A DNA stretch of 64,000 nt, from positions 2,703,277 to 2,767,276 of the forward strand of contig NZ_CP060395.1 in the NCBI RefSeq assembly GCF_015840335.1, read 5' to 3'. A model generated the notes under the pieces. It searched no databases and was not told the DNA's origin. It worked only from the letters and a program-made list of their open reading frames with translations. The DNA is from Synechococcus sp. CBW1108. GTDB taxonomy: Bacteria; Cyanobacteriota; Cyanobacteriia; PCC-6307; Cyanobiaceae. The stretch's first letter is position 1, and each line of letters opens with the position of its first letter. Positions 1 to 12,763 of the stretch are shown here, in pieces. The position numbers were made by a program, and so were the translations under genes.

Positions 1-398
1 CCATAGGTTTCCCAAGGGAGGCTGGGCCTGAGGATGGTCTGGTGGCTGGAATCGAGCTGGCGCGGGTTGGTGCTGCGAACCACGCGCAGATGGGAGGTGG
101 AGGTGAGCCGCAGCAGGCCAGTCTCCCTGATCTTCACCACCCGGGCATCTATAACAACCAGCTCCTGCTCTGGCAGCCAATCGATAACGATGGCCCCGGC
201 CGCCAGGTCCCAGCGGGGCAGTCCGACAAGACCCGGCCGGATCTGCCGCGGGGTCTCGGCCACCCTGATCAGCAGCACGACACCCTCGGCGGTGGCGACT
301 GCGCCTGGATTGAAGGCGCCCACCACGTCCATATCCGGCTGGGATGGGGCGAGTTGACCCGGGGTCAGCAGGCAGCTGCTGAACAGGCGGGGGATCAC
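1..398 (-). CDS. GH130-family glycosidase/phosphorylase-like protein (partial, runs off the left edge)
   Basis: About 132 codons are visible from a GTG at 398, which overlaps the TGA of the upstream oxidoreductase as GTGA. The translation carries the N-terminal GH130 signature, an FNPGAV motif followed by VVLLIRVAE, where family members bind sugar and phosphate near the first blade of a five-bladed propeller. GH130 enzymes act on beta-mannosides by phosphorolysis or hydrolysis; the substrate here cannot be read from the fragment. It is the last visible gene of a minus-strand operon that also holds a longer GH130-like protein. The catalytic Asp lies outside the window, so activity is unproven. 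Confidence 0.75.
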   Translation of the reverse strand, partial: MIPRLFSSCLLTPGQLAPSQPDMDVVGAFNPGAVATAEGVVLLIRVAETPRQIRPGLVGLPRWDLAAGAIVIDWLPEQELVVIDARVVKIRETGLLRLTSTSHLRVVRSTNPRQLDSSHQTILRPSLPWETY

Positions 399-1507
399 TT
401 ACCGGTCTCAGCCAGCTCGGTAGCAGCGCACGCCATGGCCAGGGAGTTGCGCCCGTTTTCCTCAGTGATCAGGCGCTGATGGGAACGGTCTGCAATCCAG
501 GCGACCTGGTCGGCAAACAGGGCCCGTAGAAGCTCACAATAACGGCGCATCTTTTCAACGTCCAAGCCACCATGGAGATCGATCTTCTGGTAGGTGTCAA
601 AGTCTTTGTGGCGTCCGCGGGCCAGCCGTTTGGCTCCGGAGTAGGCCTCGAGAACATCGAGCCTGGCCCCAGGGAAAATCTGCATCAATCTGCGCGACTG
701 CTCCTCATCCACCACCGCCCGCAGCCGCAGCCGAGTAGGCACCCATTCTTCCAGGGTCAGCTCGCCGCGCTCAAACAGGAGCCTGAATTCCTGACGCTCA
801 AGCCGGGCCGGTTGGGTGAGGCCGTGATAGAAATTAATCAGGGCCCCATTGCCATAGCGCACCACGCACTGCACCTGTTCTTCGAGGCCGGAGCCGGGCC
901 GCAGGCTGCGCTGGGAAGAGAGAACCTGCCCCTTACCCAGCCAACCTTCAAATAGGTCAAAGAAGTGCACTCCATGTTCAATGAAGATCCCGCCGCTTTT
1001 GGCCCGATCCCAAAACCAGTGGTCAGCTGAAAGCCCCTCATCGCCGGCGGCATTGTCAAACCAGCCATGCAGGCACTCACCAATCACGTTTGAGTCGATG
1101 AGTTGGTGTACCGCTTCAAACAGCGGGTTATAGCGCTGCATCAAATTGGCAACGCAGAGTAGATTGCGGGTTCTAGCCAACTGGAGCAACTCATCGGCCT
1201 GGGCCAGGCTCAGCGCCAGCGGTTTTTCGCAGATCACATGCTTACCCGCCTCAAGGGCGGCCCGCACCTGGGCGAAATGGAGGAAGGGAGGCGTGGCGAT
1301 GTAAACAAGATCTACCTGATCGAGTTTGATCAGCGTCTCCACCTCCATATTTTCGACCAGTCCGAAGCGGCGGGCCACCGCTAGGGCCGCCTCGCGGTGG
1401 CTGCCAGCCATGGCTACAAGCTCAGCGCCCTCAACCTGAAGAAACTGCTGGAGGGCAAATAGACCAAAGCCCCCTGTTCCGATGGCACCAATGCGGATAC
1501 TATTCAT
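395..1507 (-). CDS. Gfo/Idh/MocA family oxidoreductase
   Basis: The 370-residue product begins with a Rossmann NAD(P)-binding segment (GAIGTGGFG near residues 7-15) and has the family EKPLAL motif near residue 95, whose Lys is normally catalytic. The C-terminal half is the alpha/beta substrate-binding domain. Members oxidise or epimerise sugars, inositols or sugar nucleotides. The ATG overlaps the stop of the glycosyltransferase gene by ATGA, and its own TGA overlaps the next GTG, so translation is probably coupled through the whole cluster. Context suggests it modifies a sugar made or cleaved by the neighbouring GT4 and GH130 proteins; that role is inference. Confidence 0.85.
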   Translation of the reverse strand: MNSIRIGAIGTGGFGLFALQQFLQVEGAELVAMAGSHREAALAVARRFGLVENMEVETLIKLDQVDLVYIATPPFLHFAQVRAALEAGKHVICEKPLALSLAQADELLQLARTRNLLCVANLMQRYNPLFEAVHQLIDSNVIGECLHGWFDNAAGDEGLSADHWFWDRAKSGGIFIEHGVHFFDLFEGWLGKGQVLSSQRSLRPGSGLEEQVQCVVRYGNGALINFYHGLTQPARLERQEFRLLFERGELTLEEWVPTRLRLRAVVDEEQSRRLMQIFPGARLDVLEAYSGAKRLARGRHKDFDTYQKIDLHGGLDVEKMRRYCELLRALFADQVAWIADRSHQRLITEENGRNSLAMACAATELAETGK

Positions 1508-3774
1508 GGTTTGGGGATGGAATGGCGAGCGAGTTCGAGTAGTCGCATATCCTGCAGAGCCAGGAGGAAGGCCAGGGTTGATTCGGCGCCCTGGTTCATA
1601 TTGACGCTGTCGTCTTGAAGACCGTCAAAACAGCCACCGGTTCGGGCGTCATAGAGGGGCAGGTGCAGGTCGTTATCCCCGAGGAACCAGGCGAAGGCTC
1701 GCCAGGCCTCGTCAAGCCAAAATCCATCTCCAGTAGCAGACCAGGCCTCCACACAGGCCGATACCGAGGCACAGGCCTCCAAGGGTTGCTGGTCAAAAGT
1801 GGCACGATGCTGGCCGCGACGGTAGAAGCCGTTGGAGCCAATCGGCCTGAAATGGCCTGCCTCTGCGGTTTGCTCCGCCATCAACCAGCGCAAGCTGCGC
1901 AGGCCCACATCCAGGGCTTCATTTCGTTTAGACCAGCGGCCGCTGAGGATCAGGGCATGGGGCAGGGATGCGTTGTCGTAACTGAGCACGTTCTCGAACC
2001 AGGGCCATTCATCTGCACTGGATTGGTGGAAGGCTGCCAGCAACTGATCGGTGAGGGTATCGCGCATTAAATCGACGGTTCGATCGCCACTGAGCTTGCG
2101 CAGATACTCATGGATGGCCTTGAGTCCAAGGGCCCAGGCCCGTGGGCTGGTTGTCTTGGTGACCGAAGGCAAAGCCAGCTGAAACAGATCCACAGCCCAC
2201 TGGCGCAGGTCGTCGCGGCGGGATCGGCCTACGCAGGCGGCCAGGGCCAACAAGGTGCGCCCCAAACAATCATCGGAGCCATCGTCATCGAGCCAGGTGC
2301 GCTCGAAGCTCATAAAATTATGAAAACGGCAGGTCTCTGGAATATAGGCATAGTTAATGAACGATGCATAATAGGTGGCCAGCGACTTAAGCTCTGGAGT
2401 AAAGTCACCCGATTCCTCGAGCATTACCAGCAGCTGCAAAGCACGCACATTGTCATCGGTGCAGTAACCTTCCTTGAAGTTGGGAAGGGTATATTTGGCG
2501 TGCTGGTAGATACCTGTTGAATCTGTTATCCGTTTCAGATGCTCCAGCCTTAGGGCTGGGAGTTCCCGCGGCTCCTGTTCCAAAGGTTTCAGTGGAGAGT
2601 GGATCACCACTCCATTGCCGCGTTCCAAACGGGCTCGCTCAAAGGAGCTGGCATAGAGAGCCGCCACCTGGCTCCAGATCATGCTCCTGCCGAGGAGGTA
2701 GGCCTGCTTGCGCATGGCATGGCGCCGCACATCGTCAGTTAGCAAACCAATTAAGGCCACACCAATTGCCCCACTGTCTCGAAAAGGCACCAGCACACCG
2801 CGGCCATCAGCAAGCAATTCCTCCGCATGCCAGTAGGGAGTGGAAATTACCGCTTTGCCGCAGCCAAAGGCATAGGAGAGGGTGCCGGAGGTAATCTGAT
2901 CGCGATTAAGATAGGGGGTGATATAAATATCAGCCACTCCAAGAAAATCCTTTAGCTCTTCAGAGCCGACGAATCTGTTATAAAAGACAACCTGCTTTCT
3001 TACCCCCAACTCTTGGGCAAGGCGCTCAAGGCTTAATCGGTAGGTTTCACCCTGCTCGCGCAAGAGGTGGGGGTGGGTGGCGCCCAGAACGATGTAAACC
3101 ATCTCTGGAAATGCCTTTATAACTTCAGGCAAGGCGCGGATAACATTCTCTATTCCCTTTGCAGGCGAAATTAGCCCAAAGGTGAGCAGAACCTGTTTCC
3201 CCTCGACACCAAACTGATCCTTGTAGTAGTTGGGATCAACGAAGGGCGTATCTGGCACCCCATGGGGGATGACATCTAGGTGGTCAGCTTCCAATCCATA
3301 GATATCAACGAGGATTTGGCGCCCCCGCTCGCTCATCACAATGATTCGGGCAGAGCGGGCAGCTAGCTCCTTCATCACCTGCAGTTGTTCAATGCTTGGT
3401 TCCTCCAGTACCGTGTGGAGCTGGGTAACCACCGGTATATGAACATGGCGTAACAAGGTGAGGATATGGCTACCAGCAGGTCCGCCATAGATACCGAATT
3501 CATGCTGCAGGCAGATGATGTCTGTGTCCGTGAGATTAAGAAAGTCGGCCGCACGGCGATAGCTGGCTAGGTCCTGCTCTGCTAGCTCGAAGCGAACTTC
3601 AGGTGGATAGGCATAGCCCTCAGGCAGGTCATTAACCGCCACAATGAAACATTCATTAGTAGCCGTATCTTCGCTGAGTGCTCGATAAACCGAATGGGAA
3701 AAGGTGGCGATTCCGCACTTTCTTGGTAGGTAATCACCAATAATTGCAATCTTGCGAACCGGATTTGGCTTCAT
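1504..3774 (-). CDS. GT4 glycosyltransferase fused to a C-terminal helical glycosidase-like domain
   Basis: A 756-residue two-domain protein. Residues 1 to about 395 form a GT-B glycosyltransferase family 4 domain: the N-terminal GDYLPRKCGIATF strand-loop, the HGVP donor-domain entry, GLISPAKGIENVI, and GCGKAVISTPYWHAEEL in the donor site. From about residue 415 onward (ITDSTGIYQHA, GYCTDDNVRAL, MSFERTWLDDDGSDD) the sequence resembles (alpha/alpha)6-barrel carbohydrate-active modules. I chose the ATG at 3774 because it overlaps the upstream stop as ATGA; an ATG two codons earlier (3780) is possible. No signal peptide, so it is cytosolic. It lies between a GH130-like gene and an oxidoreductase, suggesting synthesis or remodelling of a storage or compatible-solute glycoside. 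Donor and acceptor are unknown. Confidence 0.85.
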   Translation of the reverse strand: MKPNPVRKIAIIGDYLPRKCGIATFSHSVYRALSEDTATNECFIVAVNDLPEGYAYPPEVRFELAEQDLASYRRAADFLNLTDTDIICLQHEFGIYGGPAGSHILTLLRHVHIPVVTQLHTVLEEPSIEQLQVMKELAARSARIIVMSERGRQILVDIYGLEADHLDVIPHGVPDTPFVDPNYYKDQFGVEGKQVLLTFGLISPAKGIENVIRALPEVIKAFPEMVYIVLGATHPHLLREQGETYRLSLERLAQELGVRKQVVFYNRFVGSEELKDFLGVADIYITPYLNRDQITSGTLSYAFGCGKAVISTPYWHAEELLADGRGVLVPFRDSGAIGVALIGLLTDDVRRHAMRKQAYLLGRSMIWSQVAALYASSFERARLERGNGVVIHSPLKPLEQEPRELPALRLEHLKRITDSTGIYQHAKYTLPNFKEGYCTDDNVRALQLLVMLEESGDFTPELKSLATYYASFINYAYIPETCRFHNFMSFERTWLDDDGSDDCLGRTLLALAACVGRSRRDDLRQWAVDLFQLALPSVTKTTSPRAWALGLKAIHEYLRKLSGDRTVDLMRDTLTDQLLAAFHQSSADEWPWFENVLSYDNASLPHALILSGRWSKRNEALDVGLRSLRWLMAEQTAEAGHFRPIGSNGFYRRGQHRATFDQQPLEACASVSACVEAWSATGDGFWLDEAWRAFAWFLGDNDLHLPLYDARTGGCFDGLQDDSVNMNQGAESTLAFLLALQDMRLLELARHSIPKP

Positions 3775-5243
3775 GAGCATTGCTCCACAGGATTGCTCAT
3801 TAATTCATTCAGCAACTGATCAACGGGCACGGTCGCAAAACTGCTTGACTGGTCGCTCATGGCATAGGGAATAATCAGAGTCCCGTTATGGATAAGGGAG
3901 CCACAACTATAGACAACATTCGGCACATATCCCTCCCTTTCCTCCTGAGTTGGCTCTAGCAGTGGCTGCCGGAGACGGCCGATCAACTGACCTGGATTAT
4001 TTAGATCTAAAAGGATAGCTCCAACTGTATAGCGTCGCATTGGACCGACTCCATGGGTTAATACAAGCCAGCCGGCATCGGTTTCTATCGGGGAGCCACA
4101 ATTGCCCACCTGAACGAACTCCCATGGATAGGTGGGGCGCATCAGGATTTTCTTCTCATGCCAGAAGTGCAGTTGGTCAGAATACATTAAGTAGATATTC
4201 TCACCATCTTGTCTGGAGAGCATTGCATAACAATCTCCTAGCTTGCGTGGGAACAGGGCCATGCCCTTATTCTCCACTTCCGGACCATTTAAAGTGCTAA
4301 TTTTGAACTTAGTAAAGTCCTTGGTTTCCAGCAACTGGGGAAATACAAGTTGGCCATCATAGGCACTATAGGTTGCATAATATGTTGTTTGGCCCCCATC
4401 CTCAAAGGCGACGAAACGAGCATCCTCGATACCTCTTCTTTCCGTGGGAGAGGTGGGGAAGATGGCGCGCTCCGAGCAATCATCACCAGTGTTAAAGCTG
4501 ATCTCGTAATTTGCCCTGGCCAGCGAAAGCACACTCTCCACCGTGCGAACGGTATCCCCATTGCCCAGGCGATCGCGGCGCAGGGCTTGGCTGGTCAGCA
4601 AGGTGAGTTGCTCGAAGCTAAAATGGTCGGGCAGTTGATCCATTAGTAGCTGGGTCAGTGCCGAAAGTAAGCCTAATTCGAGCAGTTTGCGCTCGAATAG
4701 GTGTTTGTCATAACTTGGGTTGGGATGCACATCAGCAGCTGCTACAAAGGGGCTCGGCTCATCTAGAGATATACCAACCTGGCGGTTGATCACACCAGTT
4801 CGAAAAACAATCGAAGAGATATGGCCCTCGCCCGTAGCCCTCAGACTGAGCAGAAAGCGCAAGCAGCCTGACTCCAGTCCAGACTGATCCGGGTGGGGCA
4901 CGATTGATGGATTGAAGAGCGCAGCTGCTTCCAGGGAATATTCCAGCGTGAAATAGGCACCAATGAGCAAGCGTTCACAGCGATTTAGTGGCTGATCCGT
5001 GATCAGATGTTCGCGCACATGCTCGAAACGACTCAACAGAAAAGCCTGGAGCTTTTCATGGCGGCCCTCAAATCGCTCCAGCATGATGGCAGCTTCTTGC
5101 TCTGCCTCGGAGCGGGACATTGCCGTTACTCGGGCCACAATCCTTTGGCTACGTTCCTTGCTACTTGATTCAAACGGCCTGAAAAAAACCCGGGCAGGAT
5201 CAGGCTTAATTTGGATATGGGTTCTATTAACTTGAAGCACCAT
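3771..5243 (-). CDS. GH130-like glycosidase with N-terminal helical extension
   Basis: The 490-residue protein starts at an ATG at 5243 and is the first gene of the four-gene operon. Residues 1 to about 200 are helical and not typical of short GH130 enzymes. The rest is propeller-like, with the GIEDARF motif near residue 270 (equivalent to the GIEDPR segment carrying the catalytic Asp in GH130), YYATYSAYDG, ENKGMALFPRK and YVPNVVYSCG. The longer form is a recognisable GH130 subgroup often placed next to GT4 proteins. No export signal is visible, so the substrate is probably intracellular. Phosphorolysis versus hydrolysis cannot be decided by eye. Confidence 0.8.
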   Translation of the reverse strand: MVLQVNRTHIQIKPDPARVFFRPFESSSKERSQRIVARVTAMSRSEAEQEAAIMLERFEGRHEKLQAFLLSRFEHVREHLITDQPLNRCERLLIGAYFTLEYSLEAAALFNPSIVPHPDQSGLESGCLRFLLSLRATGEGHISSIVFRTGVINRQVGISLDEPSPFVAAADVHPNPSYDKHLFERKLLELGLLSALTQLLMDQLPDHFSFEQLTLLTSQALRRDRLGNGDTVRTVESVLSLARANYEISFNTGDDCSERAIFPTSPTERRGIEDARFVAFEDGGQTTYYATYSAYDGQLVFPQLLETKDFTKFKISTLNGPEVENKGMALFPRKLGDCYAMLSRQDGENIYLMYSDQLHFWHEKKILMRPTYPWEFVQVGNCGSPIETDAGWLVLTHGVGPMRRYTVGAILLDLNNPGQLIGRLRQPLLEPTQEEREGYVPNVVYSCGSLIHNGTLIIPYAMSDQSSSFATVPVDQLLNELMSNPVEQCS

Positions 5244-5462: not shown

Positions 5463-7511
5463 GTGAGCATTTCTCCCCGGGTACTGATAGGGGGGCTAAT
5501 CAACTCCTGGGGTAGGCAGCGCACAATTGCTCTCCTGCCCTGGCTTGTGTTGGCGATCGGGCTGGCTGCTACCGCGGCGGTGAGCGAGCAGACCAGGCGC
5601 TTTGGCAAGCAGGAACATCTGCGCATTGAAAGCACCCTACTAGACAACGTCGGCGATGCCCTGCGCAGCAAGCTGGAGATAAACATTTCGATGTTGGCTG
5701 GGGTGGTGGGTTTGTTTAACTCTTCAGTTGAGGTTAACCGCGATAATTTTGTTACCTACTATCAAACCGTAGCCCTCAACACTGGCCAGCTGAAAGGTGT
5801 GCAAGGAGTTGGCTTTGCGCGCTTGATTCCGGCCCATCTACTCGAGGGTTATGAGCAACGTATCCGCTCAGAAGGATTTCCCAACTTTAACGTCTGGCCG
5901 CAAGGGCCAAGCGCTCTCTATAGCTCAATCGAATTCCTCGAGCCCTTCGACTGGCGTAATCAGCGGGCCTTCGGCTTTGACATGTACAGCGAGCCAATAC
6001 GGCGCCAGGCGATGCAGGCGGCCTGGCAGAGCGGTGCCGCCAGCCTCAGCGGCAAGGTGAAATTGGTGCAGGAAACCCAAGAGGATATGCAGCGGGGAGT
6101 ACTGATCTATTTGCCCGTTTACGCCGACCGGGGTCTATCGCCTGGTGCCAATACCCGCAAGCTCTTGGGTTGGGCTTACTCGCCGCTGCGTATGAACGAT
6201 TTGGTTAACAGTTCAATTGCAGGCATTGATAATAGCGATATGGCTGGCACCGGTGTGCTGGTTTTCGATGGCGATCGACCCTTTGCCAGTAAACTGCTCT
6301 ACGACAACCTCAAGCTGGTCTCTCGCCAGCAACTCAGCCATCCTTCCTATGAGCCGCTCCACATAGGCGGCCGCACCTGGTTGGTCGGTGTTCAGCTTTC
6401 ACCGCGGCTGGTGGGGCCAGATGGAATCACCAGTGCCTATTGGATAAACCTGCTCCTCGGCGGCAGCATCAGCATTGTGGCAGCTCTCGTAACCCACATA
6501 TTGGTGGCCAACCATCTGGCCACCCGGGAGGCTCTGGCAATCAGTGAGGCCGCCAGCCAGGAGCGGGCTCTTGCCAGCACAGTGTTTGAAGAGAGCAGCC
6601 AGGGGATTGTTGTAACAAACCCAGACGGCCAAATTTTGATGGCAAACAACAGCTTTAGCCAACTTACCGGCTTTCGCCTCTCGGAAATCAAAGGACAACG
6701 CAGCAACCTGCTGAAATCGGGCAGACATGATGCAGCTTTTTACGAACAGATGCGCAATGATCTCAACGAAAAGAGCTACTGGGAAGGGGACTTGTGGAAC
6801 AAGGTGCGCAATGGGGAAATTCGCTGTCATCACCTCAGCATCACAACCGTGCGAGATGAAAAGCTTCAACCCCGATACTTCGTGGGGATGTACCAGGACG
6901 TAACCGAGCGCCATCAGGCCGAACAGACTATGCGCTACATGGCCATGCACGACACCCTTACCGGCCTTGCAAACCGCTCAATGTTGATGGAGCAGCTGGA
7001 GCGCCACCTGGCCCTAGCAAAGCGCCACGGCCACGCCCTGGGCCTGCTCTATCTCGACCTGGATGGGTTCAAGTTGGTAAATGACCAATTTGGCCACAAG
7101 GTGGGGGACCAGGTGCTAGAGATCGTCGCCGAACGCTTTAGCAAGGTGATCCGCGACGGCGACCTGCTCTGCCGTCAGGGTGGCGATGAATTTGTGGTGC
7201 TGGTGCCGGAGGCAGGCAATTGTGCCGAACTGGAGGCCATGGCCAGGAAGCTTGTCGATTCAAGTCGCCTCCCCTATTTGGAGCTGAACCGGGCGATCAA
7301 TATTTCGGCCAGCGTGGGCATAGCCCGCTACCCAGACCACGGTGAGAGCCGCGAGCAGCTTTTATCAGCAGCAGACAACGCCATGTACGCGGCTAAGCGT
7401 AGCTCGGGAAAGTCTGTTCAGGTCTCAGGCCTGCTCCAGGCGCTTGACGATCACAGCCATCAGCACCAAGGAGCCGGCCAGAGCGACCAACAAAGCGATA
7501 GTCATGGATGA
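5463..7511 (+). CDS. Membrane CHASE-PAS-GGDEF diguanylate cyclase
   Basis: A 682-residue sensor starting at a GTG (no upstream ATG in frame). A first membrane helix lies near residues 21-40, a periplasmic CHASE-type domain at about 70-300 (GVQGVGFARLIP, FDMYSEPIRRQAMQAA), and a second helix at about 325-348. A PAS domain with PAC tail follows (GIVVTNPDGQILMANNSF to YQDVTERHQAEQ), then a GGDEF domain from about 485. The active-site GGDEF is intact and is preceded five residues upstream by RDGD, matching the RxxD product-inhibition site. It should make cyclic di-GMP under feedback control in response to an extracytoplasmic ligand. The C-terminus is low-complexity (HSHQHQGAGQSDQQ) and its end overlaps the next gene. 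Confidence 0.92.
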   Translation: MSISPRVLIGGLINSWGRQRTIALLPWLVLAIGLAATAAVSEQTRRFGKQEHLRIESTLLDNVGDALRSKLEINISMLAGVVGLFNSSVEVNRDNFVTYYQTVALNTGQLKGVQGVGFARLIPAHLLEGYEQRIRSEGFPNFNVWPQGPSALYSSIEFLEPFDWRNQRAFGFDMYSEPIRRQAMQAAWQSGAASLSGKVKLVQETQEDMQRGVLIYLPVYADRGLSPGANTRKLLGWAYSPLRMNDLVNSSIAGIDNSDMAGTGVLVFDGDRPFASKLLYDNLKLVSRQQLSHPSYEPLHIGGRTWLVGVQLSPRLVGPDGITSAYWINLLLGGSISIVAALVTHILVANHLATREALAISEAASQERALASTVFEESSQGIVVTNPDGQILMANNSFSQLTGFRLSEIKGQRSNLLKSGRHDAAFYEQMRNDLNEKSYWEGDLWNKVRNGEIRCHHLSITTVRDEKLQPRYFVGMYQDVTERHQAEQTMRYMAMHDTLTGLANRSMLMEQLERHLALAKRHGHALGLLYLDLDGFKLVNDQFGHKVGDQVLEIVAERFSKVIRDGDLLCRQGGDEFVVLVPEAGNCAELEAMARKLVDSSRLPYLELNRAINISASVGIARYPDHGESREQLLSAADNAMYAAKRSSGKSVQVSGLLQALDDHSHQHQGAGQSDQQSDSHG

Positions 7512-10423: not shown

Positions 10424-10846
10424 GTGGTGGACACTGCCCAGTTGCGTGCCCTGTTCAGCAAGCCCTACGGCGCCCCCGGGCCGAGCCAAGCCCAGTGGCG
10501 GGAGCTCTACGCCGAGGATGTGCACTTCAGCGATCCCACCCAGGAGCGCGAGGGAATCGCGGCCTATATCGCCGCCCAGGAGGGCCTGCTCAAGCGCTGC
10601 GACGACACCTATCTCACCCCCGGCGCCATCGCGATCGAAGGCAGCAGCGCCTTCGTGGAGTGGGAGATGGGGCTAAGGATCAAGGGAATCGAGTTTGTGT
10701 ATCCAGGCACCACCCGGCTGCTGTTCAACGGCGAGGGCAGGATCTGCGACCACCGCGACTACTTCGATTTCGTTGGCCCCACCTTCGGGCCGGTACCGCT
10801 ACTGGGTGGCTTCGTGCGCTGGCTCTATGGGCGCTTCGTGGGCTGA
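10424..10846 (+). CDS. SnoaL/NTF2-like nuclear-transport-factor fold protein
   Basis: About 140 residues from GTG at 10424 (a second GTG follows immediately). The pattern of a helix (LRALFSKPYG, WRELYAEDVHFSDPTQ) followed by strands (TPGAIAIEGSSAFVEWEMGL, GTTRLLFNGEGRICDHRDYFDF) is that of small NTF2-fold enzymes and binding proteins such as SnoaL-like polyketide cyclases. No catalytic residue assignment is safe. The upstream extension in the same frame crosses the divergent promoter region and was rejected. Confidence 0.72.
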   Translation: MVDTAQLRALFSKPYGAPGPSQAQWRELYAEDVHFSDPTQEREGIAAYIAAQEGLLKRCDDTYLTPGAIAIEGSSAFVEWEMGLRIKGIEFVYPGTTRLLFNGEGRICDHRDYFDFVGPTFGPVPLLGGFVRWLYGRFVG

Positions 10847-10892
10847 CGGAGGTAAGGAGCTAGCGAGCTGGCGCTCCCCCCTGCCAGGATCG

Positions 10893-12008
10893 GTGCATAG
10901 AGCCATTCCCCCGTTGCCAATACCGTTGCTGCGGGCGCTGGCGATCGGTCTTCTCCTGGCGGCCATGCCGCTGCAGGCCGCAGCGGTGCTCCGGGTGGGG
11001 GTGGCGGATGGTTCCCAGCCCTGCTCGTTCCGCAAGCAGGGCAGCTGGAGTGGGATGGCCGTGGAGCTGTGGCAACGCATCGCCGCCCAGGAGCGGCTGC
11101 CCTACGTGCTGGTGGCACGGGAGAGCACCGCCAGCCTGCTGGAGGCCACCCGCCGCGGCGAACTGGATGTGGCCATCGGCTGCATCACCGTCTCACCGGA
11201 ACGGCTGGGGAGCAACCGTTTCTCCCTGCCGTTCCAGGAGACTGGACTGGGGGTGATGACCCTGCGCTCCCGGCTGGATCTGGGGGTATCGCTGCTGCAG
11301 TCGCTGCTGGGCCCCGACCTGATTCGCCTGCTACTGGCCTATGTGGGCCTGATCGGCCTGCTGAGCGTGGCGGTGTGGCGTGTGGAGCGCTCCGGCAGTA
11401 AACCGGCAGCCTGGGAAGTGGGACGTCGCCGCGGCTTTGCCCTGATCTTCCAGGTGCTGACAACCGGGCCAGGCACCAACACGGTGGTGGTGACAGCCCG
11501 CGGCCACTCCCTGGTGTTTCTGGCCTACCTGGTGCGGATCGTCAGCGCGTCCCTGCTGGTGAGCTACGTGACAATCAACGTGGTGCGTGGCAATCAGGAC
11601 CTGGCAAGCCGCTCGGTGCGTAGCCTCAATGATCTAGCGGGCCAACGGGTGGCGGTGCGTCCAGGCAGTGTCAGCGAAGAGCTGCTGCGAGGCCTCAACC
11701 GCAGCGGGCTGCAGCCGCCGATCCAGTTACGCAAGTTGATGCGGGTGCCGGATGCCGATTCCCTGCTGGCAGCTGGCGCAGTGGAGGCGGTGATGGCCGA
11801 TGACATCCAACTGGACTTCCTGCTGCAGCAGCTCTCCGACAAGCGCTTCGGCCTAGCCCTACGCGATCTCAATCCCCAGAGCCAGGCTTTCGCCTTGTCC
11901 CCCACCCTGAACGACGCAAGTGTCAGCCGGATCAACGTGGCCCTCGGCCGGCTGAAACGAGATGGGGCGGTGAGCCAGCTGCGCCGTCAGGCGATCAACG
12001 GCTGGTAG
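10893..12008 (+). CDS. GluR0-like ionotropic receptor: periplasmic binding domain with inserted pore
   Basis: 371 residues from GTG at 10893. Order: signal sequence (LLRALAIGLLLAAMPLQAAA, to about 31), binding lobe S1 (VLRVGVADGSQPCSF to about 128), transmembrane helix (about 143-162), pore loop (about 181-200), second helix (about 205-226), then lobe S2 to the end. This is the topology of prokaryotic glutamate-receptor channels such as Synechocystis GluR0. The pore reads TTGPGTN at residues 190-196 instead of TVGYGD, so the GxG core is kept but the Tyr is replaced by Pro and the acidic residue lost. It may be an altered-selectivity channel or a non-conducting receptor. Start is uncertain because the GGAGGTAAGGAG at 10848 is about 35 bases upstream. 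Confidence 0.8.
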   Translation: MHRAIPPLPIPLLRALAIGLLLAAMPLQAAAVLRVGVADGSQPCSFRKQGSWSGMAVELWQRIAAQERLPYVLVARESTASLLEATRRGELDVAIGCITVSPERLGSNRFSLPFQETGLGVMTLRSRLDLGVSLLQSLLGPDLIRLLLAYVGLIGLLSVAVWRVERSGSKPAAWEVGRRRGFALIFQVLTTGPGTNTVVVTARGHSLVFLAYLVRIVSASLLVSYVTINVVRGNQDLASRSVRSLNDLAGQRVAVRPGSVSEELLRGLNRSGLQPPIQLRKLMRVPDADSLLAAGAVEAVMADDIQLDFLLQQLSDKRFGLALRDLNPQSQAFALSPTLNDASVSRINVALGRLKRDGAVSQLRRQAINGW

Positions 12009-12056
12009 GCCCCGGGGGGGGGGGCGGCAACATGGGGTGCGAGCTTGCCGCCCGCC

Positions 12057-12710
12057 ATGCACCGTCTCCCTGCGCTGGCCCTTTCGGGGTATTGCCTGGC
12101 TCTGGCGGGCTGCGGCGGGAACCCCTCCCGGGAGGCCCCATCCGCTGTAACGGGACCGATCCGGATCGAGCTCGACCAGAAGGCGCCGTCGAGTAGCTAT
12201 GGAATTCTTACCCGCGGCCAAGAACGCAAGGTCTTCAAGGTGGGTTTCGGCCGAAACGGCATCACCTGCGCCGGCAGCCGCTTCGAGGAGGGCTACACGC
12301 CGCTGGGGCGTTTCCGGGTGAATGGGATCTTCAGCCACGATCGCTTCGAGATGGAGCCGGCGCTGGTCGCCCAATCAGGCAAGAGCGAAGCTGAACTGCG
12401 CCGGACGCTCTTCCGCAACATGAACGCCATCGACTTTGACGGCGATGGTGAAACTCGGGAATACGGCAGCGGCTACGTGAGCCTGGCGCCGGTGGGCAGC
12501 GTCAAACAGCCGTTCGCCTTCAACACCTACGAAGGCAGGTTCCGCTGGTACAGCTTCGCCATCCACGGCAGCAACAACGACCAACGCATCGGCCAAAAAG
12601 TGACCGGCGGCTGCGTGAACGTGGCCGAGCCCGCACTCCAGGCCCTACTCTCGGCCGTGAAGCTGGGCGATGAGGTAGTGATCAGTGCCAACGGACCCTG
12701 CACACCGTGA
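12057..12710 (+). CDS. L,D-transpeptidase (YkuD-like) family lipoprotein
   Basis: 217 residues from ATG 12057; a TTG four codons upstream is possible. A short signal with lipobox LALAGC predicts Cys19 lipidation. The C-terminal part has IHGSNNDQRIGQ followed by TGGCVNV, equivalent to the HG...SxGC catalytic motif of YkuD domains with the Cys nucleophile present. The family cross-links or attaches proteins to peptidoglycan, here presumably from the periplasmic or outer-membrane side. YTPLGRFRVNGIF is the usual core strand. Confidence 0.78.
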   Translation: MHRLPALALSGYCLALAGCGGNPSREAPSAVTGPIRIELDQKAPSSSYGILTRGQERKVFKVGFGRNGITCAGSRFEEGYTPLGRFRVNGIFSHDRFEMEPALVAQSGKSEAELRRTLFRNMNAIDFDGDGETREYGSGYVSLAPVGSVKQPFAFNTYEGRFRWYSFAIHGSNNDQRIGQKVTGGCVNVAEPALQALLSAVKLGDEVVISANGPCTP

Positions 12711-12763
12711 TAGCGGCCTGGTGGATTAATTTAAAGCAAGTTTCACTACAAATATGAATCGAG

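Follow-up and report, generated by a model that had tools for sequence, protein, structure and literature searches.

A four-gene GH130/GT4 operon of Synechococcus that may make and recycle a beta-1,2-linked mannoside

Results

The first 5,243 nucleotides of a 64,000-nucleotide stretch of Synechococcus sp. CBW1108 DNA (the window; contig NZ_CP060395.1, positions 2,703,277 to 2,767,276) hold most of an operon of four minus-strand genes. From 5' to 3' they encode a long GH130 protein (GH130L, starting at 5243), a GT4 glycosyltransferase fused to an (alpha/alpha)6 domain, a Gfo/Idh/MocA-type oxidoreductase (Gfo), and a short GH130 protein (GH130S). We propose that this cytoplasmic operon serves to build and turn over a beta-1,2-linked mannoside, either an oligomannan or a beta-mannosyl-capped glycoside, by a synthase/phosphorylase scheme with a mannogen-like function, and we put the chances of this proposal at about even. 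An earlier reading of the same DNA, made from its letters alone (the sequence-only reading), had the set make, cleave, and modify a glycoside inside the cell. That idea was supported, with the catalytic Asp kept in both GH130 proteins; the product and the direction of the pathway are what we infer from the comparisons below.

The two GH130 proteins resemble beta-1,2-mannoside phosphorylases

The model of GH130L (3771..5243, minus strand; 490 residues), which has a predicted local distance difference test (pLDDT) score of 90, is a five-bladed propeller of the GH130 type to which N-terminal helices (residues 29-97) and a helical insert (residues 180-243) are added. The GH130 domain is C-terminal and matched PF04041 with an E value of 1.3e-28 and 100.3 bits against a cut-off of 26. 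When the model was compared with the beta-1,2-mannoside phosphorylase structures 7fir, 7fip, 5b0q, 5b0p, 9gph, and 9fj8, the Z scores were 34.8-35.5 with root mean square deviations of 1.8-2.2 over 282-291 residues; these propeller matches are Teth514_1789, Lin0857, and Teth514_1788, the last of which also matched GH130L by profile (E 7.3e-46). The GT108 structures of the Leishmania mannogen enzymes gave Z scores of 20.8-21.8, which are 13 to 15 units lower. Residues E273, D274, K326, and R344 of GH130L were kept in all 40 aligned rows (its own row included), and position 378, where the proven phosphorylase Teth514_1788 has Arg, was Gln in 27 rows (again with its own) and Lys in 13.

GH130S lies at 1..398 of the window (minus strand), which includes only the first 132 of its 370 residues; that piece alone gave no Pfam match, and the whole protein matched PF04041 with an E value of 2.3e-45. 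Its best profile match was the beta-1,2-mannobiose phosphorylase Lin0857 (E 1e-96, profile positions 3-350 of 351), followed by Uhgb_MS. Residues E135, D136, K183, and R201 were kept in 11 of 11 rows (own row included), and position 241, a second basic site that corresponds to position 378 of GH130L, was Arg in 10 rows and Lys in 1, so placed that R201 and R241 may be phosphate ligands. On the scale of the NCBIfam equivalog models, GH130L scored 148.9 bits against a cut-off of 550 (NF050092) and 139.2 against 450 (NF052550), and GH130S scored 314.7 and 161.3 bits against the same cut-offs; by that rule, neither protein is an equivalog of the named phosphorylases, and GH130S is a relative of them. 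The alignments behind the profile searches and residue counts (A3 and A4) include rows from named plasmids, and those behind the models (A7 and A8) do not.

The beta-1,2 specificity of GH130 enzymes has been tied to a Lys in the portion of the source available (PMC4599007). As placed by profile alignment, this Lys (K326 in GH130L, K183 in GH130S) and the catalytic Asp (D274 and D136) are invariant in GH130L (40 rows) and in GH130S (11 rows), as is the E-D pair of the GxED motif. Loss of the catalytic Asp from both proteins, which the sequence-only reading had named as a result that would speak against it, did not occur, the residue being present in 40/40 and 11/11 rows. The sequence matches, the residues, and the fold thus support the prediction that the GH130 enzymes of the operon are of the beta-1,2-mannoside phosphorylase type, and the comparisons point to a beta-1,2-mannoside as their probable substrate.

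The GT4 protein carries an (alpha/alpha)6 domain without a Pfam match

The second gene (1504..3774, minus strand) encodes a fusion that most likely has 756 residues. A further ATG lies upstream at 3780, and the start at 3774 was chosen because relatives start at that position. The two-domain model (pLDDT 87, predicted template modeling score 0.70) has a GT-B (GT4) domain at residues 8-389 of the 758-residue frame (2614..3759), placed by profile and fold matches, and an (alpha/alpha)6 domain at residues 403-754 of that frame (1519..2574), placed likewise. The GT4 families PF00534, PF13692, and PF13439 were all over their cut-offs. The GT4 domain had the GDP-mannose-dependent enzyme PimA as its best PDB profile match (E 7e-15), and its model gave Z scores of 34-36 to the GT-B structures of sucrose-phosphate synthase, MshA, and PimA. 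On the basis of the similarity to PimA and of the ManA/ManC neighbors described below, GDP-mannose is the probable GT4 donor. GT4 enzymes retain configuration, and the GT4 domain alone therefore could not make beta-linkages; as a guess, it might have a primer or an alternating role.

The (alpha/alpha)6 domain had no Pfam match. Its nearest structure is that of YPO2471, an exported protein of unknown function (7tem; Z 38.8, profile E 1.4e-14), which was also the sole solved sequence match seen. Cellobiose 2-epimerases gave Z scores of about 30-31. N-acylglucosamine and cellobiose 2-epimerases use a catalytic His pair; after residue 427, no His was conserved at 90% in 47 rows, positions that were not superposed on an epimerase. 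The fold thus agrees with a cellobiose 2-epimerase and the conserved His pair was not seen, and we did not keep that assignment. The families that the sequence-only reading had named were recovered, with GH130 at both ends and GT4 and Gfo/Idh/MocA between them by Pfam, and the (alpha/alpha)6 domain by model and fold match.

The GT4 and GH130L genes form a widespread pair

A scan of species genomes returned at least 581 stretches with a GT4 relative at E <= 1e-3, and the locus counts in this paragraph rest on the best 80 of these. Those 80 span Planctomycetota, Verrucomicrobiota, Acidobacteriota, Ignavibacteriota, Bacteroidota, Spirochaetota, Fibrobacterota, Myxococcota, Elusimicrobiota, cyanobacteria, archaea, and others. 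With GH130L counted around the GT4 gene from 200 bits and 40% identity upward, it lay within 300 bp downstream in 64 of the 80 loci, with frequent overlaps of 1 to 20 bp. The other 16 comprise 4 with GH130L farther downstream, 2 with it upstream (both Synechococcus), 1 with it on the other strand, 3 in which the contig ends too soon, and 6 without it. We conclude from these sequence comparisons that the GT4-(alpha/alpha)6 fusion and GH130L constitute a widespread core, of which the four-gene form is a rarer extension. What the sequence-only reading lacked is that the core pair is confined neither to this operon nor to cyanobacteria.

Several further features of the core loci were seen. Five of the six loci without GH130L (L035, L052, L054, L057, and L069) have a shorter GH130 directly after the GT4 gene, which suggests that the phosphorylase partner of GT4 can be exchanged. 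Nine loci, of which six are from Acidobacteriota, have a second and shorter GT4 gene close to the core, and in L023 a shorter GT4 gene (10776-11816) directly precedes a further GH130 gene (11813-12748). In two Ignavibacteria loci (L016 and L041), the core is accompanied by a solute-binding protein, two permeases, and a further GH130, the importer families having been assigned by Pfam on the L016 copies. These two loci also encode stand-alone (alpha/alpha)6 proteins with signal-like N-termini as judged by eye (L016:11705-13006 and L041:5915-7207); the L016 protein matched YPO2471 (7tem) with 369 bits, and its L041 counterpart falls into the same cluster. L041 encodes a GH2 protein as well.

Plasmid records with a GT4 relative numbered 28, mostly from rhizobia and sphingomonads, and 25 of them matched over at least 80% of the length. 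A class I mannose-6-phosphate isomerase gene or a bifunctional ManC-type gene stands directly before the GT4 gene in three of the four alphaproteobacterial plasmid loci that were read, an arrangement that suggests synthesis with GDP-mannose as the starting point. Two of the loci (L007 and L010) have such a gene before GT4 and an annotated GH130 directly after it; the annotation of L009 is sparse and omits the GT4 gene and what follows; and L008 has GT4 and GH130 without an adjoining isomerase gene. One of the four loci lies by cyd genes and a Crp/Fnr regulator and another by dnaK, grpE, usp, and dps; neighbors of this kind, seen in three of the alphaproteobacterial loci, fit a reserve or a protectant.

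The Gfo oxidoreductase co-occurs with the core

The third gene (395..1507, minus strand) encodes a 370-residue Gfo/Idh/MocA-type oxidoreductase in which PF01408 (E 3.3e-28), PF22725, and PF02894 were over their cut-offs. The EKP motif (E94-K95-P96), H178, and H181 were invariant in the five aligned sequences. None of the 10 reported models for named Gfo equivalogs (inositol, UDP-GlcNAc, glycoside 3-dehydrogenase, and others) was at its cut-off, the best being TIGR04380 with 89.2 bits against 355, and a plasmid search with Gfo returned two distant Streptomyces relatives at 33-34%.

Searches made with Gfo only found it in at least 3 of 392 Planctomycetota genomes, one of which was the search center (G397), and in at least 3 of 288 Verrucomicrobiota genomes. 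Few candidates were scored per genome in these phylum samples, so that the tallies are lower bounds, and the planctomycete samples of 392 and 372 genomes differ. Five of the genomes picked by Gfo had not been chosen by GT4; all five encode a full-length GT4 fusion and at least one GH130, with GH130 directly after GT4 in four of them (the exception being G766). Against a GT4 background (E <= 1e-200) of at least 26/288 Verrucomicrobiota and at least 29/372 Planctomycetota genomes, the hypergeometric probability of this co-occurrence was about 3e-6, with the center genomes excluded and without correction for relatedness. In addition to its full GT4 fusion, G766 has another, separate stretch (L126) that matches only the (alpha/alpha)6 domain. 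In G1052 (L113), the Gfo gene overlaps a GH130 gene (PF04041, 72.1 bits) about 40 kb from GT4. The planctomycete G487 encodes a 730-residue protein in which an (alpha/alpha)6 domain without GT4 is joined to a Gfo domain (L114:8059-10251), followed by a second Gfo and then by GH130S. Of the individual observations, this fusion speaks most strongly for an action of the two on one molecule, and together with the co-occurrence it supports a tie between Gfo and the pathway of the core.

Relatives and origin of the four-gene form

A sample of 201 genomes of the family had the GT4 gene in five, each of them with the order GH130L-GT4-Gfo-GH130S, an arrangement that is more than chance. Besides that of strain CBW1108, a single contig of 3.23 Mb, these are G364, G387 (Synechococcus sp. 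CS-1331, the nearest named relative at the locus, with a GT4 protein 96% identical), G1167 (CS-1325), and G1179, as the sequence-only reading had proposed to look for; an operon unique to its own genome is thereby ruled out. The first two genes of G1179 lie 2 bp apart without overlap. The other junctions of the operon copies are four-base overlap words, save for an early GH130L stop in CS-1331. In that GH130L gene (L117:10354-11514), codon 387 is an in-frame stop, and the remainder of the reading frame is uninterrupted at about 97% identity. By eye, the flanks of the operon are alike only between CBW1108 and CS-1331, and the other copies have different surroundings. Within the genus, Gfo was present in 3 genomes of the 16 examined, with CBW1108 counted in, and in 3 of the 11 of good quality. 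The ratio of nonsynonymous to synonymous substitution rates (dN/dS) was 0.03-0.10 in seven of eight pairwise comparisons, five of these seven having dS > 1, and the eighth had no usable dS. The operon genes are under purifying selection.

Outside the cyanobacteria, the four families were found together in one Isosphaeraceae genome (L056), in another order and on two strands. Among 386 sampled cyanobacterial genomes, a GT4 match (E <= 1e-60) was present in 3, and the other cyanobacterium (G151) has a GT4 protein only 43% identical, without GH130 or Gfo beside it. The nearest outside relative of GT4, at 68%, is from an Akkermansiaceae genome. That locus (L015:6618-9972) has an intact GT4 fusion followed by a broken Gfo gene, and before the fusion a GH130-like N-terminal remnant, which had no Pfam match and looks, by eye, like the N-terminus of the GH130 protein in L113. 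In the GT4 tree, Synechococcus and Akkermansiaceae grouped with support of 100/100, joined less firmly (82/88) by GH130S-bearing Planctomycetota and one further bacterium. Vertical cyanobacterial inheritance of GT4 was rejected on the 3/386 occurrence and on this grouping, and lateral transfer from the Planctomycetota-Verrucomicrobiota side is likely.

Operon architecture and surroundings

The four genes and the three overlaps given by the sequence-only reading were confirmed when the junctions were read: ATGA at 3771..3774 (GH130L stop, GT4 start), ATGA at 1504..1507 (GT4 stop, Gfo start), and GTGA at 395..398 (Gfo stop, GH130S start), all on the minus strand. To the left of position 1, GH130S continues beyond the window to G000:C1:2702562, which completes the 370-residue gene (L004:12563-13675). 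The next gene is nadA (PF02445, E 1.5e-121), which is convergent, so that the gene run stops after four; the 3' ends of GH130S and nadA overlap by 71 bp (L004:12563-12633). A divergent gene for a CHASE-PAS-GGDEF diguanylate cyclase (window 5463-7511) lies 219 bp upstream of GH130L, and among the five operon copies this neighbor was seen by eye only in CBW1108 and CS-1331. A genome search found two GH130 genes in CBW1108, both in the operon, and one copy of the GT4 fusion.

None of the four proteins has a stretch reaching 1.7 on the Kyte-Doolittle scale in a 19-residue window, which makes signal peptides and membrane helices unlikely; the sequence-only reading had likewise seen no signal peptide, and its view of a cytoplasmic set was supported. 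No RNA element was found at gathering score in the first 9 kb. Promoter and terminator predictions gave no clear candidate (2 found against 3.0 expected, and 7 against 5.9 expected).

Discussion

Proposed function and alternatives

The scheme that we propose would begin with GDP-mannose from central metabolism, from which the GT4 domain would add an alpha-mannosyl unit to an acceptor. The GH130 pair would then extend or shorten the glycan by beta-1,2-mannosyl units, with alpha-mannose-1-phosphate serving as the donor in one direction and arising as the product in the other; by analogy with the Thermoanaerobacter enzymes, GH130S may handle mannobiose and GH130L the longer chains. Stored sugar would thereby be returned as mannose-1-phosphate without ATP. 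The (alpha/alpha)6 domain might hold, cut, or transfer the same glycan, and Gfo would oxidize or reduce one of its sugars. We infer the direction, synthesis and turnover, because of the ManA/ManC neighbors and because no sugar importers were seen by eye around the Synechococcus operon or next to the core in the plasmid loci read.

Several observations weigh against this scheme. Both GH130 proteins fall short of the NCBIfam equivalog cut-offs, and the Gln at position 378, where Teth514_1788 has Arg, suggests that the donor of GH130L may differ. The stop at codon 387 in the GH130L gene of CS-1331 is either real or a sequencing error. An alpha-linkage made by a retaining GT4 would not be cut by GH130, and the Synechococcus operon itself contains no mannose-phosphate gene. 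The Ignavibacteria core, beside importer genes and an apparently secreted (alpha/alpha)6 protein, looks catabolic, and the opposite direction is plausible there. As for Gfo, it is scarce within the genus (3 of 16 genomes), and only 2 of 14 core-bearing genomes tested (L014 and L056) had a match at E <= 1e-30. The 12 without a match indicate that Gfo is dispensable for the core, and the genomes of L020, L028, L029, L036, L040, L045, and L085 have GH130S near the core and no Gfo match. In three of the five genomes picked by Gfo (L111, L112, and L115), the gene stands apart from GT4 and GH130, and one of these three, G766, has GT4 without an adjoining GH130.

Some of these points would suit catabolic salvage, in which imported beta-1,2-mannosides would be converted by two GH130 phosphorylases to mannose-1-phosphate and then, as GDP-mannose, passed to GT4 with no storage. 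Such a route was proposed for a Thermoanaerobacter cluster with an ABC importer in the part of that report available (PMC4264767), and the two Ignavibacteria loci, with their solute-binding protein, permeases, further GH130, and apparently secreted YPO2471 relative, are arranged as it would predict. Neither a sugar importer nor a secreted glycanase was seen by eye around the operon in CBW1108, G364, G1179, or G1167, where most open reading frames were not searched by family (family searches covered a sulfatase gene, a GT2 gene, and a phospholipase-D-like gene). The alphaproteobacterial plasmid loci that were read have no such gene annotated next to the core; the sparsely annotated L009 has an MFS gene and one for a solute-binding protein at a distance of about 8 kb. 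In addition, the host is phototrophic, and we consider salvage unlikely here. A surface or lipid glycan appears more improbable still. In that case, the acceptor of GT4 would be a lipid or part of the cell wall, and a surface mannoside precursor would be trimmed and modified by Gfo and the GH130 enzymes ahead of its export. The GT4 domain is indeed close to PimA and MshA, and Gfo enzymes often modify nucleoside diphosphate sugars for surface glycans, a role that would fit. Against this, the four genes include no flippase or polymerase, the four proteins have no strongly hydrophobic stretch, and closely coupled phosphorylases are ill-suited to a one-way surface pathway.

A further alternative concerns GH130L alone and is compatible with the proposed mannoside cycle: it might be a GDP-mannose-dependent beta-1,2-mannosyltransferase or a hydrolase that builds or trims the chain, leaving only GH130S phosphorolytic, much as roles are divided among the mannogen enzymes of Leishmania. 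The Gln found at position 378 in most rows and the large extra N-terminal helical region and insert would be in keeping with such a change, as would the use of GDP-mannose, according to the titles of their structure entries, by Leishmania MPT-1 and MPT-2, which share the general fold. The 13 rows with Lys at position 378, the invariant R344, and the phosphorylases as nearest folds argue the other way, and at two aligned positions GH130L has no Glu of the kind that the available portion of PMC4599007 gives for GH130 hydrolases. We regard this possibility as doubtful.

The proposed beta-1,2-mannoside cycle would have wider implications, which we offer tentatively and as falling well short of an even chance. 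A mannogen-type intracellular beta-1,2-mannan reserve may be widespread in bacteria and some archaea through the GT4-(alpha/alpha)6 fusion and GH130L, with the (alpha/alpha)6 domain and exported YPO2471-type proteins together forming a new carbohydrate-active family, and with a lateral branch in Planctomycetota, Verrucomicrobiota, and Synechococcus that adds the mannobiose phosphorylase and Gfo and makes a redox-modified mannan. If so, many bacteria, a few or more cyanobacteria, and some archaea would have, in addition to glycogen or in its place, a mannose store or protectant in the cytoplasm from which mannose-1-phosphate could be freed at no cost in ATP. A function would follow for the very common nameless GT4 fusion and the YPO2471-type fold, and perhaps also for GH130 genes now read otherwise. 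In the portions of the sources available, the GH130 of soil ammonia-oxidizing archaea are read as plant-mannan enzymes (PMC6657660), and an intracellular, expressed GH130 is described in ammonia-oxidizing archaea (PMC11131427).

Comparison with known systems

Among the matches listed in searches of the open-licence literature, we found no published description of the core or of the four-gene set, nor a described pathway with the same gene order, which the sequence-only reading had set down as a finding that would count against it. Among single proteins, the closest solved relative of GH130S, over nearly its full length, is Lin0857, the beta-1,2-mannobiose phosphorylase of Listeria innocua (5b0p-5b0s). 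YPO2471 (7tem), the closest fold to the (alpha/alpha)6 domain, is exported and was solved alone, whereas the domain here is fused to GT4 and has no signal-like N-terminus. The cyclic beta-1,2-glucan synthase combines GT84, an (alpha/alpha)6 domain, and GH94, a like arrangement of transferase, (alpha/alpha)6 domain, and phosphorylase on one glycan. All of its families differ from those of the operon, and its GT84 is inverting and membrane-bound, in contrast to the retaining and soluble GT4 here.

The cluster Teth514_1785-1796 of Thermoanaerobacter sp. X-514 likewise has two beta-1,2-type GH130 enzymes (Teth514_1788/1789), a GT4, and mannose-1-phosphate metabolism, including a mannose-1-phosphate guanylyltransferase, and is described in terms of GDP-mannose salvage in the part of the report available (PMC4264767). 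The general idea thus has a precedent. The cluster differs in that the same part of the report lists no Gfo enzyme (PMC4264767). The mannogen of Leishmania is likewise an intracellular beta-1,2-mannan handled by five-bladed-propeller enzymes and alpha-mannose-1-phosphate, as far as the available parts of the sources describe it (PMC8950772 and PMC3290622), and the portion of PMC8950772 at hand names neither a GT4-(alpha/alpha)6 protein nor Gfo. Its GT108 structures are, as noted, far from GH130L in fold; both propellers of the operon scored over the GH130 cut-off, the fold comparison having been made on GH130L, and they do not belong to GT108. A mannogen-like function remains compatible with enzymes of GH130 rather than GT108 families. 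To the extent that these partly available reports allow, the nearest published idea is the GDP-mannose salvage cluster of Thermoanaerobacter, and the nearest function is that of Leishmania mannogen.

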